From contig CAJWLF010000001.1 of assembly GCA_913043205.1 (NCBI GenBank), positions 1-64,000 on the forward strand: a stretch of 64,000 bases of DNA, given 5' to 3'. A program made the position numbers and the translations under genes. The notes under the pieces are model-generated. The model saw only the letters and a program-made list of their open reading frames with translations, had not been told where the DNA came from and made no database searches. Shown here in pieces: positions 29,342-36,071 of this stretch (positions are counted from its first letter, which is position 1; every line of letters starts with the position of its first letter). Source of the stretch: an uncultured Chloroflexota bacterium (GTDB taxonomy: Bacteria > Chloroflexota > UBA11872 > VXNJ01).

Positions 29342-31201
29342 TTGGCGAAAGGATTGTATGGATTGACTAGACGGGTATTGCATCTTGGTTTTGATGGAAT
29401 GAATATCTTGTTGCTGAGGAGATTTGTAGACGAAGGGATCTTACCGCACTTTTCTGATTTGTTAAGTCGGGGATCATCTAATAGATTGCTTTGTTCTATT
29501 CCTGCTTGGACCCCAACAAATTGGGCGTCTGTTGTAACAGGGGCTATGCCGGGTACACATGGTCTTGCTGGTTGGAGCCGTCGGGAGAGATGTGATGGAT
29601 GGGGTGTCCCGCGGGTTCGAAATGAGGATTCTGCTTCTATGGACGCAGATACTATATGGGAAGCTGCATCCAGAGCCGGACTAGTAAGTATGGCGACTTT
29701 CTTTCCGGCTTCTTGGCCATCTCGCATGGAGAACGGATATGTAGTGGCCCCTGGATTCCGGTACCCGCCGTTTGCAATGGCGCTGCCTGAAGTTTACCTG
29801 ATGGGACCTTCTGTCAAGTATGCCGATTCTTCCTCAACTGCTTCCGGTGTTGATCCAGTTAGCACCAATATAGCTGAAACAGGATCTGACGCACCCGTAA
29901 CAAGGTTGCCTGGTGTGAAGGCTAAGTTGACCGTGTTCGGGCGACCAGAACAGGATCACTTGGGCGAGGTGAGAATTGAATCTGACGGATCGCTATTTGC
30001 CAGAGGGGATGTGACTTCATCTGATGAAGTCAGAGTAGTGCTAGGGAAATGGAGCGATTGGCTGTATTCGAGACTTAAAGATGATGACGGTTCTGTTAGA
30101 GATGTGGCGTATCGTATTCGCTTACTAGATAGCAACAATGAGGCAGTCAAATTCGTGCGTTCTGAAGCTCATCGTATCGATGGGTTTACGGATCCACCTG
30201 AGCTAGCAAGTGAGTTAGTGGAACGATTTGGTCCCTTTACTGGAATTTTTTCTCTGCGACCTTCCCCTTCAAACATTGAGCTTGAAACTGTGCTCGACGA
30301 GTATAGGGATCAAGGATTATGGATGGCGCAAGCCGCTAGGTATGTCCTTCTCTCACGAGGGTGGGACATTCACTTTTGTCATTGGCACCTTTTTGACACT
30401 ATAAATCATGCCCACGTGAACCCTCTTGATCCTGATGGTCCTGAATACGATGTGAGTAAGCACGAATGGCATTACGAGGCCCATCGAAAAGCGTTCATGG
30501 TAGCTGATGAGGTATTAGGGGAATTTATGAAATGTGTAAATAAGGATACCTTCGTGTTCGTAAATGCCGATCATGCGATGGCTCCCACGCACAGATGGGC
30601 TAGCTTACCTGCTTTATTGAAGAGGGATGGTTTACTTGTTTACGAAAGTGATGGGATCACCCCTGACTGGTCCCGAAGCGCGACCTATTTAATCCCAGAG
30701 AGAGGTAGTGAAATATTCATAAACTTAAAAGGGAGGGAGCCTCAAGGGTTTGTGGATCCCGCAGATTACCATCAAATTCAGGATCGTATAATCTGTCTGC
30801 TGAACAATTGGAAGGACCCTCTAAATGATTCGAGGATAGTAGCTTTTGCTCTTAAGGCAGAAGATGCTCAGATCATCGGGCTATGGGGTCGGAATATTGG
30901 TGATGTGGTTTTTAGTCTTAATAGAGGTTTTGGGTGGGGTACTCCCAGAGAAGGTGGGGAAATAGGTATGGCTTGGGAAGCTCTCCATGGGTCTCAAGTG
31001 CCTACGAGTGAAAAAGGCTATTTGACCAATATGGGTTGTTTAATTGCAGCGGGACCAGGAGTAAAATCAGGGTATGAGCGTGATTGGAAAGAAAATGGTT
31101 TGATGCGTATGATCGATGTGGCTCCAACGATTGCTCATGTTATGGGTTTTGAACCTCCAAGACAATCCCAAGGAACCGTGTTAGGGGATATTTTAGAATG
31201 A
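29342..31201 (+). CDS. type I phosphodiesterase/nucleotide pyrophosphatase-like alkaline phosphatase superfamily protein
   Basis: VLHLGFDGMNILLLRRFVDEGILPHFSDLLSRG...IPAWTPTNWASVVTGAMPGTHGLAGW; VNADHAMAPTHRW. Confidence 0.85.
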   Translation: MAKGLYGLTRRVLHLGFDGMNILLLRRFVDEGILPHFSDLLSRGSSNRLLCSIPAWTPTNWASVVTGAMPGTHGLAGWSRRERCDGWGVPRVRNEDSASMDADTIWEAASRAGLVSMATFFPASWPSRMENGYVVAPGFRYPPFAMALPEVYLMGPSVKYADSSSTASGVDPVSTNIAETGSDAPVTRLPGVKAKLTVFGRPEQDHLGEVRIESDGSLFARGDVTSSDEVRVVLGKWSDWLYSRLKDDDGSVRDVAYRIRLLDSNNEAVKFVRSEAHRIDGFTDPPELASELVERFGPFTGIFSLRPSPSNIELETVLDEYRDQGLWMAQAARYVLLSRGWDIHFCHWHLFDTINHAHVNPLDPDGPEYDVSKHEWHYEAHRKAFMVADEVLGEFMKCVNKDTFVFVNADHAMAPTHRWASLPALLKRDGLLVYESDGITPDWSRSATYLIPERGSEIFINLKGREPQGFVDPADYHQIQDRIICLLNNWKDPLNDSRIVAFALKAEDAQIIGLWGRNIGDVVFSLNRGFGWGTPREGGEIGMAWEALHGSQVPTSEKGYLTNMGCLIAAGPGVKSGYERDWKENGLMRMIDVAPTIAHVMGFEPPRQSQGTVLGDILE

Positions 31202-32646
31202 GTAATACGGCTGGGTTTTGGCTGGAGGAAGAACAAGTGATTGGTCGTAAGAGAGATGGTTTAGGGAAGAGGCCCAATGTGGTGGTGGTAGTGCTAGATA
31301 GCCTAAGACGAGATCATGTTGGCGCATATGGAAACGATTGGATACACACTCCTAATATAGATGCGCTAGCTAAAGAATCTATAAGGTTTTCTAATGCACT
31401 GCCGGAGGCGTTAGCAACCATACCGGCGCGTCGAGCTATTCACACTGGCTGTAGAGTGTTTCCTTTTCATAATCACCAGAGCCGTAAGGGTGACAGTGTG
31501 CGTGGGCAAGGATGGGCACCCATTCCTGAATCACAGGTAACTTTCGCAGAGATTATGGCTAAGGTCGGCTACAGAACAGGGTTAATAATCGACACATATC
31601 ACCAATTTAAACCTTCCATGAATTTTCATCGGGGTTTCCACCAATTTATTTGGGTGCGTGGCCAAGAATATGACGCGTATAGGGCCGAGTCGAACATGGA
31701 TCCGGCTATTGTCGATCGACATAGCCACCCCAGTTTCGATGGGACCAATCAAAAGGAAAAACTGACTAGGTACCTTTCAAACATTGCTGATAGGAGATAC
31801 GAGGAAGATTATTTTGCTCCTAAGGTATTTAGAGAGGCTATGAAGTTCGTAGAGGACAATAGAGAGGATGAGTTCTTTCTTGTCGTAGATTCATTTGATC
31901 CTCATGAGCCATGGGATCCGCCCCAGTGGTATGTGGACCTATACAAACCTGGGTATGGTAAACGAGATCTAATTTGGCCAGTATATGGTGGTACGCAGGT
32001 CCTCAGTGAAGACGACATTCAGGGGATACGTGCTTTATACGCTGGCGAAGTTACTATGACTGATCGTTGGATAGGGAAGTTTATTGCCCACATGGATCAA
32101 TTGGATTTGTTGAATAATACATTGTTGGTGGTGCTTTCCGATCACGGACACATCTTGGGAGAACGAGGAGTCATCGGAAAGCTTCGAACCCATCCATACC
32201 CTGAATTACTTGACATAATGCTAACAATGCGGTTGCCCAATGCTTGTCACGGTGGTGAGGTGATAAACAGCTTTGCTTATGATCACGATGTTATGCAAAC
32301 AGTGTTGAGCGCTCTCGGGATTGATGTAGGCATCAAGAATGATGGGCGAGATTTGTTGGCCGAGTTATATGGCGATGTTAGTGGGCGTAGTTGGGCTACG
32401 ACTGCTTTTCTAGATCGAGTGGTATATCAAGACACCGAACATTATTATTTCGCACGACTCGATAGGCAATATGAACATCTATTCAATCGCAATAATGATC
32501 CAGAACTCTTGTCCAACCTTGCTGAGCAGAGTCCTGATTTATGCAGGGAATTGTTTGCCCGCATTTTGTCTGATGCTGGTGGTAACATCCCGACAATTTC
32601 TCAATCTGATTTACGGTTAGAAGGTCCCTGGTTCGACCAGCTATAA
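31198..32646 (+). CDS. sulfatase-like (alkaline phosphatase superfamily) protein, Thr at the FGly position
   Basis: NVVVVVLDSLRRDHVGAYGNDWIHTPNIDALAKESIRF...ATIPARRAIHTG...DSFDPHEPWDPP...VVLSDHGHILGERG. Confidence 0.88.
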   Translation: MSNTAGFWLEEEQVIGRKRDGLGKRPNVVVVVLDSLRRDHVGAYGNDWIHTPNIDALAKESIRFSNALPEALATIPARRAIHTGCRVFPFHNHQSRKGDSVRGQGWAPIPESQVTFAEIMAKVGYRTGLIIDTYHQFKPSMNFHRGFHQFIWVRGQEYDAYRAESNMDPAIVDRHSHPSFDGTNQKEKLTRYLSNIADRRYEEDYFAPKVFREAMKFVEDNREDEFFLVVDSFDPHEPWDPPQWYVDLYKPGYGKRDLIWPVYGGTQVLSEDDIQGIRALYAGEVTMTDRWIGKFIAHMDQLDLLNNTLLVVLSDHGHILGERGVIGKLRTHPYPELLDIMLTMRLPNACHGGEVINSFAYDHDVMQTVLSALGIDVGIKNDGRDLLAELYGDVSGRSWATTAFLDRVVYQDTEHYYFARLDRQYEHLFNRNNDPELLSNLAEQSPDLCRELFARILSDAGGNIPTISQSDLRLEGPWFDQL

Positions 32647-32661
32647 GGAAGGTATGCATAT

Positions 32662-34035
32662 ATGAATGTTGTGCTTGTGATAATGGATACTTTGCGGCGT
32701 GATCATGTGGGGTGTTACGGAAATGAATGGATTCAAACTCCTTTTTTGGATCAATTTGGTACTGAATCCATCAGGTTTGTTGATGCGTATCCAGAATCTC
32801 TTCCCACGATAGAGGCCCGTCAGGGTATGCATACTGGCATAAGGTTGTTTCCGTTTAACAACCATAAGAGTATTAAGGGAGATGGTGTGCGCTGGGGCGG
32901 GTGGCATCCCATCGATGACGCAAAGGTGACATTGTCTGAAATCTTGGCTAATGCTGATTATCGTACTGGTCTTATTACGGACGTGTACCATCAGATGAAG
33001 CCGGGTATGAATTTTCATCGTGGCTTCCACCAATTCCAATGGATTCGTGGTCAAGAAGGTGACGCATGGAAATCATCGACTACGATGGCTAAACGCGATA
33101 TATCTTCGATATTGCCACCAACCATGGTTGGCACTGTAAAAGAACGAGCTTTGCGTCGCTATTTGGCGAATGTTGACATAAGACAATCCGAAGAGGATTA
33201 TTTTGCACCACAGGTATTTAGAGCAGGAATGCGTTTTCTTGAGGACAATAGGGATGATGACTTTTTCCTCGTTATAGACTCGTTCGATCCGCATGAGCCT
33301 TGGGACCCTCCCGAATGGTACTCTGATCAATACAACCCTGGATATGATGGTCGGAACTACATATGGCCCACAACTCAAGACAGCTCGATTTATTCGGACG
33401 AAGAAATAAAGCAGATACGCGCCCTGTATGCAGGCGAGGTGACGATGACAGATAGGTGGTTTGGACATTTTATGAGCCACCTAGAGCAATTGGGCTTGAA
33501 GGAAAAAACGTTGGTCGTGGTGTTATCCGATCATGGTCATCTGCTTGGTGAAAGAGGCGCTATAGGCAAGTTTTCACCGTATCTTTATCCAGAGCTATTG
33601 GACATAGTTTTGATGATTCGCCGGCCTGATGGTGCTGACGCAGGTAAAGTGATTGATGGATATGTGTACGACCATGATCTCCTTCCGACGATTCTGGAAT
33701 TCTTGCAAGTAGACGCTCCCACGAAAGTTGATGGGGTTAGTCTATGGCCGATGGTATCCGAGACGGTGGGAGGGAGAGACTATATTACGTGCAGTATGGG
33801 TTCTCATTTGGCGTATGTGGACCGTGAGTATTGGTATATATGTGAACGTGACGGTTCTGAGCCTAAGTTGTACCCGATGGAAAATTACCCATCCCTTGAT
33901 GTGGATGTAGCTCCTCAAAACCCTGATATATGCGCGCTTTTGTACAGGCGTTTATTGGGCGATGCAGGAGGCATGATTTTGCCAATCGACGAAGAATCAC
34001 TACGCCAAGTCGGGCCGTGGTACGAACAAGTCTAA
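32662..34035 (+). CDS. sulfatase-like protein, tandem paralogue of the preceding gene
   Basis: NVVLVIMDTLRRDHVGCYGNEWIQTPFLDQFGTESIRF...PTIEARQGMHTG...DSFDPHEPWDPPEWY...VVLSDHGHLLGERG. Confidence 0.88.
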   Translation: MNVVLVIMDTLRRDHVGCYGNEWIQTPFLDQFGTESIRFVDAYPESLPTIEARQGMHTGIRLFPFNNHKSIKGDGVRWGGWHPIDDAKVTLSEILANADYRTGLITDVYHQMKPGMNFHRGFHQFQWIRGQEGDAWKSSTTMAKRDISSILPPTMVGTVKERALRRYLANVDIRQSEEDYFAPQVFRAGMRFLEDNRDDDFFLVIDSFDPHEPWDPPEWYSDQYNPGYDGRNYIWPTTQDSSIYSDEEIKQIRALYAGEVTMTDRWFGHFMSHLEQLGLKEKTLVVVLSDHGHLLGERGAIGKFSPYLYPELLDIVLMIRRPDGADAGKVIDGYVYDHDLLPTILEFLQVDAPTKVDGVSLWPMVSETVGGRDYITCSMGSHLAYVDREYWYICERDGSEPKLYPMENYPSLDVDVAPQNPDICALLYRRLLGDAGGMILPIDEESLRQVGPWYEQV

Positions 34036-34188
34036 ACGTTCCTAAACTATATATTGAGTGTTAATAGCCTTCTATATGTGACGCACTGACGGGCATAAAA
34101 TTCTTTTCGATGATATTGCATGGAGATGATTGATTTTTGGGCCGCCGAATGTGATTAAGGTTGGCATGATCTGCTAGTCAGGATTTGC

Positions 34189-34218
34189 TAAACTTTGTGA
34201 CAAGGATCACAAAGTTTA
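34189..34218. promoter_or_regulatory. perfect 12-bp inverted repeat with CRP-type core TGTGA-N6-TCACA
   Basis: TAAACTTTGTGA caagga TCACAAAGTTTA read directly at 34189-34218. Confidence 0.7.
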
Positions 34219-34344
34219 TTAATATCTGCGCGGCAATACAAGAAATGGTAATTGTTCATTACTGAATTTAAACCAGTAAAGCTAGCAATTGTAAATCTAG
34301 TCTATAGGTAAGTTACAGTCGATCCGCGCAAAGCGGTCATTAAT

Positions 34345-35250
34345 ATGATTAAATCTTGGAATAGTATTCGGTCGAATTATAGATTAGTTGGGCCTCGTTC
34401 TCTTGGAGTGAGGCCGGTACGATTACATAGAGTTATGGGTTCAGTAGGACGTTCTAGGAGTGTTGATAACAATTTTCAGGCGAAGAATAATGATGGAGCC
34501 CAAAAATGGCACTATCAGAGTGTATATGATGCAATGAAGTCTGGGTGTATGTTACCACCTGTCGTAATGTACGAATTTCTAAATGAATATTTTGTTTTTG
34601 ACGGACACAACAGGGTTGCTGCAGCGATATCCCTTGGTCGTAAATTTGTTGACGCTGAGATTATTCAATTTTTACCCACGACGGAAAGTGACGCTCGTCG
34701 ATTGTCTGTGGAGCGTGCGAATTTCGAACTTAAGACCGGAATCAGAACCATTGAAGCAAATAGGCCGGGTGTGTATCCCAGGCTTTTGCAATGTATCGAG
34801 CAAAGGTGCATGGAATTCGACGAACTAATAACGTGTAGCTCTCGATTTAGATATTACGCTGACGAATGGCATCGCGTAGTGTTTATTAGAAACGTGGGCC
34901 CGTTGATACGGGCCGGCTTGGTTAATGATGAATATACTGCTGCAGACGTATTTCTTGAGTTGCTGGAGCGTCAGGAGATGGAAAGTGAGCGTGCCGGGTT
35001 TGATGTCGATATTGTGACGACTCAGCAGTTAATGGTTGAAGGACATAAAGACGCTCAAATGAATGCCGGGCAACGCATCGCTCAACAGGTGTTTCAGCGG
35101 GCTGACAAAATGGCGTTCAGCATAGGTCGCAATGAATTGGGGCTATTGTGTGATGACTATATAGATGTCCAAAATATTGATCCAAACATGATTGCCAAAA
35201 TAGAAGCTGTTCTTAATGATGCTCGCCTATGCGCTGCTGGGCCGATGTGA
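34345..35250 (+). CDS. ParB/sulfiredoxin-fold-like protein with a DUF4032-like C-terminal part (inference)
   Basis: MLPPVVMYEFLNEYFVFDGHNRVAAAISLGRKFVDAEIIQF resembles ParB N-domain 'vvDGHHRvaAa...G'; YADEWHRVVFIRNVGPLIRAGL downstream. Confidence 0.65.
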   Translation: MIKSWNSIRSNYRLVGPRSLGVRPVRLHRVMGSVGRSRSVDNNFQAKNNDGAQKWHYQSVYDAMKSGCMLPPVVMYEFLNEYFVFDGHNRVAAAISLGRKFVDAEIIQFLPTTESDARRLSVERANFELKTGIRTIEANRPGVYPRLLQCIEQRCMEFDELITCSSRFRYYADEWHRVVFIRNVGPLIRAGLVNDEYTAADVFLELLERQEMESERAGFDVDIVTTQQLMVEGHKDAQMNAGQRIAQQVFQRADKMAFSIGRNELGLLCDDYIDVQNIDPNMIAKIEAVLNDARLCAAGPM

Positions 35251-35360: not shown

Positions 35361-36071
35361 ATGTCTATATTCGTTTTTCCGGACTTATGGGTACTGCTCT
35401 TGATTGGTTACCTAATTGGTTCTGTCAACTTATCAGTCCTGTTGGGTAAATGGATAGGGAAAGACATTCGTGGGGTTGGGACAGGAAATCCTGGGGCTTC
35501 AAATGTATACAGAAACCTTGGGCAAGCGTTCGGAGCCGCTATTCTAGTTTTGGATGCTTGCAAAGCGCTTCTCCCTATGATCATTGTCTCTAACTGGTAT
35601 GGTGCGACCCATCCACCCGAGATAGGATTAGGTATGGCTATCGCTGTGGCTTGTACCGCTCAAATAGGCCATTGCTGGACTGTTTTTCACAAATTTCGTG
35701 GTGGAAAAGGGGTAGCTGTTTCGGCCGGACTATTTATTGGGTTTGGTGTTATCGGTGGACCGGAATTTGGTGTTAACAATCATATTTATCCTATTATTGG
35801 AACCGCTGGATATCTAGTCGGTATTAGGGTAAGAAAGCCTGGTATGGCGATGGGGATGATGGTTTTGTTGTCAGTTCCCATAGGATTAATATTGGGCGTC
35901 AGCGGTGAGATATTGATTGGTAGTGGCATGACAACGGGACTCTTTTTTATCCGGAGAATGCAGGATATTTTTCCGTTTTGGAGTCATACTTCAAACAGAT
36001 GGTTTTTGATATGGTCTGTTGTGATGGATGACATCGTTCCGGGTCAAATTTTGGTAGGGAGACGTGGTTAA
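35361..36071 (+). CDS. plsY: glycerol-3-phosphate acyltransferase PlsY
   Basis: LIGYLIGSVNLSVLLGKWIGKDIRGVGTGNPGASNVYRNLG...IGHCWTVFHKFRGGKGVAVSAG. Confidence 0.92.
   Translation: MSIFVFPDLWVLLLIGYLIGSVNLSVLLGKWIGKDIRGVGTGNPGASNVYRNLGQAFGAAILVLDACKALLPMIIVSNWYGATHPPEIGLGMAIAVACTAQIGHCWTVFHKFRGGKGVAVSAGLFIGFGVIGGPEFGVNNHIYPIIGTAGYLVGIRVRKPGMAMGMMVLLSVPIGLILGVSGEILIGSGMTTGLFFIRRMQDIFPFWSHTSNRWFLIWSVVMDDIVPGQILVGRRG

Follow-up and report, generated by a model that had tools for sequence, protein, structure and literature searches.

The window, the whole 64,000-nucleotide stretch of DNA analysed here, holds a perfect inverted repeat at 34189..34218, recognised by sequence inspection and RNA folding and assigned to neither strand. 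The repeat reads TAAACTTTGTGA-CAAGGA-TCACAAAGTTTA, its 12-bp arms pairing at 12/12 positions across a 6-nt loop, and it lies 153 bp past the stop codon of the second of two sulfatase-like genes and 126 bp ahead of the ATG at 34345. The perfect 12-bp arms, the TGTGA-N6-TCACA motif and the 126-bp distance that an earlier note on this DNA had claimed were all confirmed in the sequence. No regulator gene adjoins the palindrome.

The gene presumed to be regulated (34345..35250, + strand) encodes a 301-aa protein with a ParB/sulfiredoxin-like domain, assigned by fold comparison, and its product had no match in Pfam or NCBIfam. Foldseek matches of the predicted structure, a model of modest confidence (pLDDT 68.6), were nearly all ParB, Noc or sulfiredoxin proteins, none with an E-value below 0.001, and on this model the ParB-like description in the earlier note appears to hold at the level of an N-terminal ParB/sulfiredoxin-like fold. 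The product would share this fold with the ParB/sulfiredoxin-like proteins of Chloroflexota, whereas the gene differs from theirs in belonging to no Pfam or NCBIfam family and in standing between a sulfatase-fold pair and plsY. The protein had a match in 19 of the 61 genomes searched, its own included, and no relatives were found in viral contigs. Homologues elsewhere in the phylum (L005, L008 and L018) adjoin a metallophosphoesterase gene, and in L005 a UspA-like N-terminal region precedes the ParB-like part. The glycerol-3-phosphate acyltransferase gene plsY (35361..36071, + strand; PF02660, E 4.5e-30) begins 110 bp downstream of the ParB-like gene and is a possible candidate for co-regulation.

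Upstream, the second sulfatase-fold gene occupies 32662..34035 on the + strand (PF00884). Both proteins of the pair (31198-34035) have Thr in place of the Cys/Ser of the C/S-x-P-x-R motif (TIPAR and TIEAR), and judging by these residues they may be phosphodiesterase-type enzymes rather than true sulfatases. The sulfatase at L040, the best match in the genome contigs (58% identity), was rejected as a close relative, since its neighbouring genes differ and its hairpin is unrelated. In G003, a genome of the same family, the order is likewise a sulfatase-fold gene followed by a ParB-like gene, but without the palindrome; the sulfatase orthologue there (L004:17-1296) is broken into several frames by a frameshift or an assembly error.

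The palindrome as a sequence and as a hairpin

Of 4000 dinucleotide shuffles of the 309-bp intergenic region that holds the palindrome, only 2 produced an arm of 12 bp or longer. Across 453 kb, taken as stretches of the genome and with genes called by a home-made gene caller, three perfect palindromes combine arms of 12 bp or more with a loop of 3-10, where shuffles predict 0.1; the one at 34189-34218 is the longest perfect intergenic palindrome and the other two are coding. With arms of at least 11 bp the count was six against 0.8 in shuffles, and most of these are coding. Two perfect inverted repeats within predicted coding sequence have arms of 15 bp (L086:18161-18193) and 13 bp (L085:9214-9244). 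Since long perfect palindromes also occur in the coding DNA of this genome, palindromy alone is no proof of function.

The hairpin might act mainly as an RNA element, as a transcript 3′ end or an attenuator in the gap that separates the sulfatase gene from its downstream neighbour. The RNA fold of 34180-34230 (−15.4 kcal/mol, z −4.0), the + strand orientation of both flanking genes and the short perfect palindrome 20 bp past the stop of the related L040 sulfatase gene all fit such a role, which would also account for the complete 12-bp symmetry. However, the arms are 25% G+C, no T-run follows and no terminator was called, and an intrinsic terminator was rejected for want of a GC-rich stem and a T-run; the terminator-like hairpin at C1:86130 in this genome differs in being GC-rich with a T-rich tail. 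The hairpin is also separated from the sulfatase stop by 153 bp, and an RNA element would leave the match to rex upstream sites, described below, unaccounted for. We regard an RNA element as improbable.

CRP-type half-sites and the regulators of the genome

The exact TGTGA-N6-TCACA core lies at 34196-34211. These are the half-sites and spacing of E. coli CRP, and the earlier note ascribed the palindrome to a regulator of the CRP/FNR family, proteins of the CRP type being present in 22 of 25 genomes of the relatives set. The resemblance to the operator of a dimeric transcription factor with these half-sites stands, but the factor is very probably not of that family. No match to the cNMP-binding domain (PF00027) was found in the 1.87-Mb genome, searched as 1,874,051 bases in 32 contigs and 93.6% complete, by a search that did detect the domain in 10 of 14 control genomes and in 22 of the 25 relatives. 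The only HTH_Crp_2 match, below the cut-off, was rejected as a Crp helix-turn-helix, the protein being of the MarR type. Thus, although the E. coli CRP site has the core in common with the window site, no CRP/FNR protein was detected in this genome as far as an assembly 93.6% complete can show, an outcome that the earlier note had named as refuting its reading. There is a small chance that a CRP gene lies in the 6% missing from the assembly, since cNMP-binding domains occur in 22 of the 25 relatives. The same-family genomes G002 and G004 are also devoid of PF00027, and the motif nevertheless stands there ahead of rex and of respiratory genes. TGTGA-N6-TCACA should therefore not be read as a CRP site before checking which regulator the genome holds.

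Rex and Rex-type sites in this genome and its relatives

Rex, a repressor common among bacteria, responds to the NADH/NAD+ balance and normally regulates respiratory and fermentative genes. The genome encodes it once, at G000:C2:57556-58194 (PF06971, 7.6e-15), with 253 bits against the cut-off of 217 for the NCBIfam equivalog NF003993, and solved Rex structures align to the protein across its full length. The gene is followed directly downstream by nuoA and a nuoC-type subunit gene. No ATG, GTG or TTG precedes the conserved N-terminus in the rex frame (L094:1593-2234; G000:C2 ~57556), the first standard start being an internal TTG, which would point to a rare start codon or else to an error in the sequence.

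The predicted Rex-type operator of the window, TTGTGACAAGGATCACAA (34195..34212, no strand assigned), matches the TTGTGA-N6-TCACAA inverted repeat at all 12 positions. It departs from TTGTGAA-N4-TTCACAA by two mismatches, the C and the A at the two inner positions, and its spacer is partly G-rich.

The exact TGTGA-N6-TCACA core occurs five times in 1.87 Mb, against about two predicted from base composition. Four of the five are intergenic where about 0.43 would be expected (P about 2.5e-4), or three of four with the window site left out (P about 0.0024, the fairer value), these binomial values depending on a home-made gene caller and on a motif picked after the window had been seen. When TTTGTGA/TCACAAA pairs with up to two mismatches were counted at spacings of 0-15, intergenic enrichment appeared only at spacing 6 (three, against at most one elsewhere). 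One exact core (C2:57464) stands 77 bp upstream of the rex match, another (C2:203429) between nrdR and an MMPL transporter gene, 56-57 bp ahead of the latter, and a third (C3:61484) ahead of a DCC-type thiol-disulfide oxidoreductase gene. The core at C18:6460, within the coding sequence of a sulfatase gene, was taken as chance.

A site with two mismatches, ATGTGAAAAGGTTCACTA, precedes the ATP synthase genes, so that the motif is present both at the genome's own rex gene, as in autoregulation, and at a respiratory operon (atp). The Rex-like site before ATP synthase genes (L150:1490-1530) is flanked by GC-rich inverted arms, GCGCGCGG ... CTCGCGCGC, which recall the outer symmetry of the window palindrome. 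With a matrix built from the relatives' rex sites alone, which amount to three distinct sequences, the window site ranked 8th of 453,077 positions and 6th among the intergenic ones.

When the DNA ahead of rex was compared across 30 genomes, nine of these regions had a best core with at most one mismatch at spacing 6, against 0 or 1 at any other spacing of 0-13. The nine are not nine independent events, being drawn from few genera, and the other 21 regions have no clear core. G002 and G004 carry an exact TTGTGATATGTTTCACAA ahead of a multihaem cytochrome/molybdopterin oxidoreductase cluster. Two same-family genomes (L160:1501-1518 and L161:1501-1518) keep a Rex-like site, TTGTGCAGTTTATCACAA, and a protein encoded nearby resembles one next to the site C12:11794 of the window's own genome.

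Recurrence and conservation, which the earlier note had proposed as a check, gave a divided result: the core recurs, but the 26-mer of the palindrome has no further copy in the genome at up to three mismatches and the site is not kept at the orthologous locus. At the syntenic locus of G003, the best core has four mismatches. No congeneric genome was found, and the window site is lineage-specific as far as seen.

Two further explanations bear on this distribution. Another dimeric regulator, of the MarR, GntR or a similar family, might have the 24-bp palindrome as its private operator, the likeness to Rex being incidental. The symmetry reaches 5 bp (TAAAC/GTTTA) past the Rex core, with a chance of about 1 in 1000 for the site taken alone; this outer symmetry is not required by Rex, the genome has no second copy of the extended arms, and other winged-helix regulators are present, such as the MarR protein in L002. 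Against this, the exact core is shared with the rex-linked site and a small intergenic set, and a regulator gene is lacking beside the palindrome, making a private operator highly improbable. The most improbable of the explanations weighed is a functionless palindrome that arose by chance or mutation (e.g., quasipalindrome correction), which would agree with the excess of long perfect palindromes over shuffles even in coding DNA but not with a core whose sequence and spacing match a Rex operator, nor with the concentration of such cores in intergenic DNA.

A proposed Rex switch at the ParB/sulfiredoxin-like gene

In Streptomyces avermitilis, TTGTGA-N6-TCACAA Rex operators lie at rex, nuoA1, atpI and cydA1, and those linked to rex, nuo and atp were footprinted or shifted, the footprinted ones overlapping the −35/−10 region (PMC5355995). 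The nuoA1 site, TTGTGACCTGCTTCACAT, has the same inner C as the window site (PMC5355995). Staphylococcus aureus Rex binds TGTGAn6TCACA; changes at the inner positions and a G-rich spacer weaken binding, and the inner position is often mismatched in confirmed Rex sites, with lower affinity (PMC2883068). Because of these mismatched sites and the inner C of nuoA1, we treated the inner A/T as a preference rather than as defining.

Compared with the Rex operators of S. coelicolor, S. avermitilis and S. aureus, the window site has the same TTGTGA-N6-TCACAA core and spacing, and the genome, like theirs, has sites upstream of rex and of nuo/atp-type genes. It differs in having C/A in place of the inner A/T pair, a symmetry 5 bp longer, and a ParB/sulfiredoxin-like target rather than a respiratory or fermentative one. 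Judged by the behaviour of S. aureus Rex, a site with these inner mismatches and a G-containing spacer should be weaker than the consensus, and the candidate operator is probably of moderate strength.

Since the core agrees with the rex upstream sites both here and in relatives, the genome encodes Rex and the cores are concentrated in intergenic DNA, the palindrome likely contains an operator at which this organism's own Rex would repress the ParB/sulfiredoxin-like gene, and perhaps plsY as well. The inner deviations, the absence in G003, the 21 of 30 rex regions without the core, the extra symmetry and the unusual target count against this reading; to our knowledge, neither a ParB-like gene nor plsY is a usual Rex target. 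Binding, repression, the exact promoter and the responding genes are what we infer from the sequence. Weak sigma-70-like hexamers (GTGACA-N17-TAATAT, 34197..34225, + strand, 9/12 matches) overlap the operator, but occur about equally often in shuffles and, being at chance level, are suggestive only.

In the proposed switch, Rex, as a dimer in the state that NAD+ favours, would hold both TTGTGA half-sites at 34195-34212, in the 5′ region of the gene at 34345. Bound at a low NADH/NAD+ ratio, it would block transcription of this gene and possibly of plsY too; a rise in NADH would make Rex leave, and the gene would be expressed. That Rex directly controls a ParB/sulfiredoxin-fold protein, and perhaps phospholipid synthesis through plsY, in this Chloroflexota-like lineage is a more tentative proposal, which we hold at somewhat below even chance.

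If it is true, the NADH/NAD+ balance would be linked to a new Rex target, within a small candidate Rex regulon comprising rex-nuo, atp, the MMPL transporter beside nrdR, the DCC-type thiol-disulfide oxidoreductase and the ParB-like gene. The guess of CRP thereby gives way to a testable redox switch in an uncultured lineage, one in which the type of switch looks ordinary and known and the gene behind it unusual and uncharacterised.
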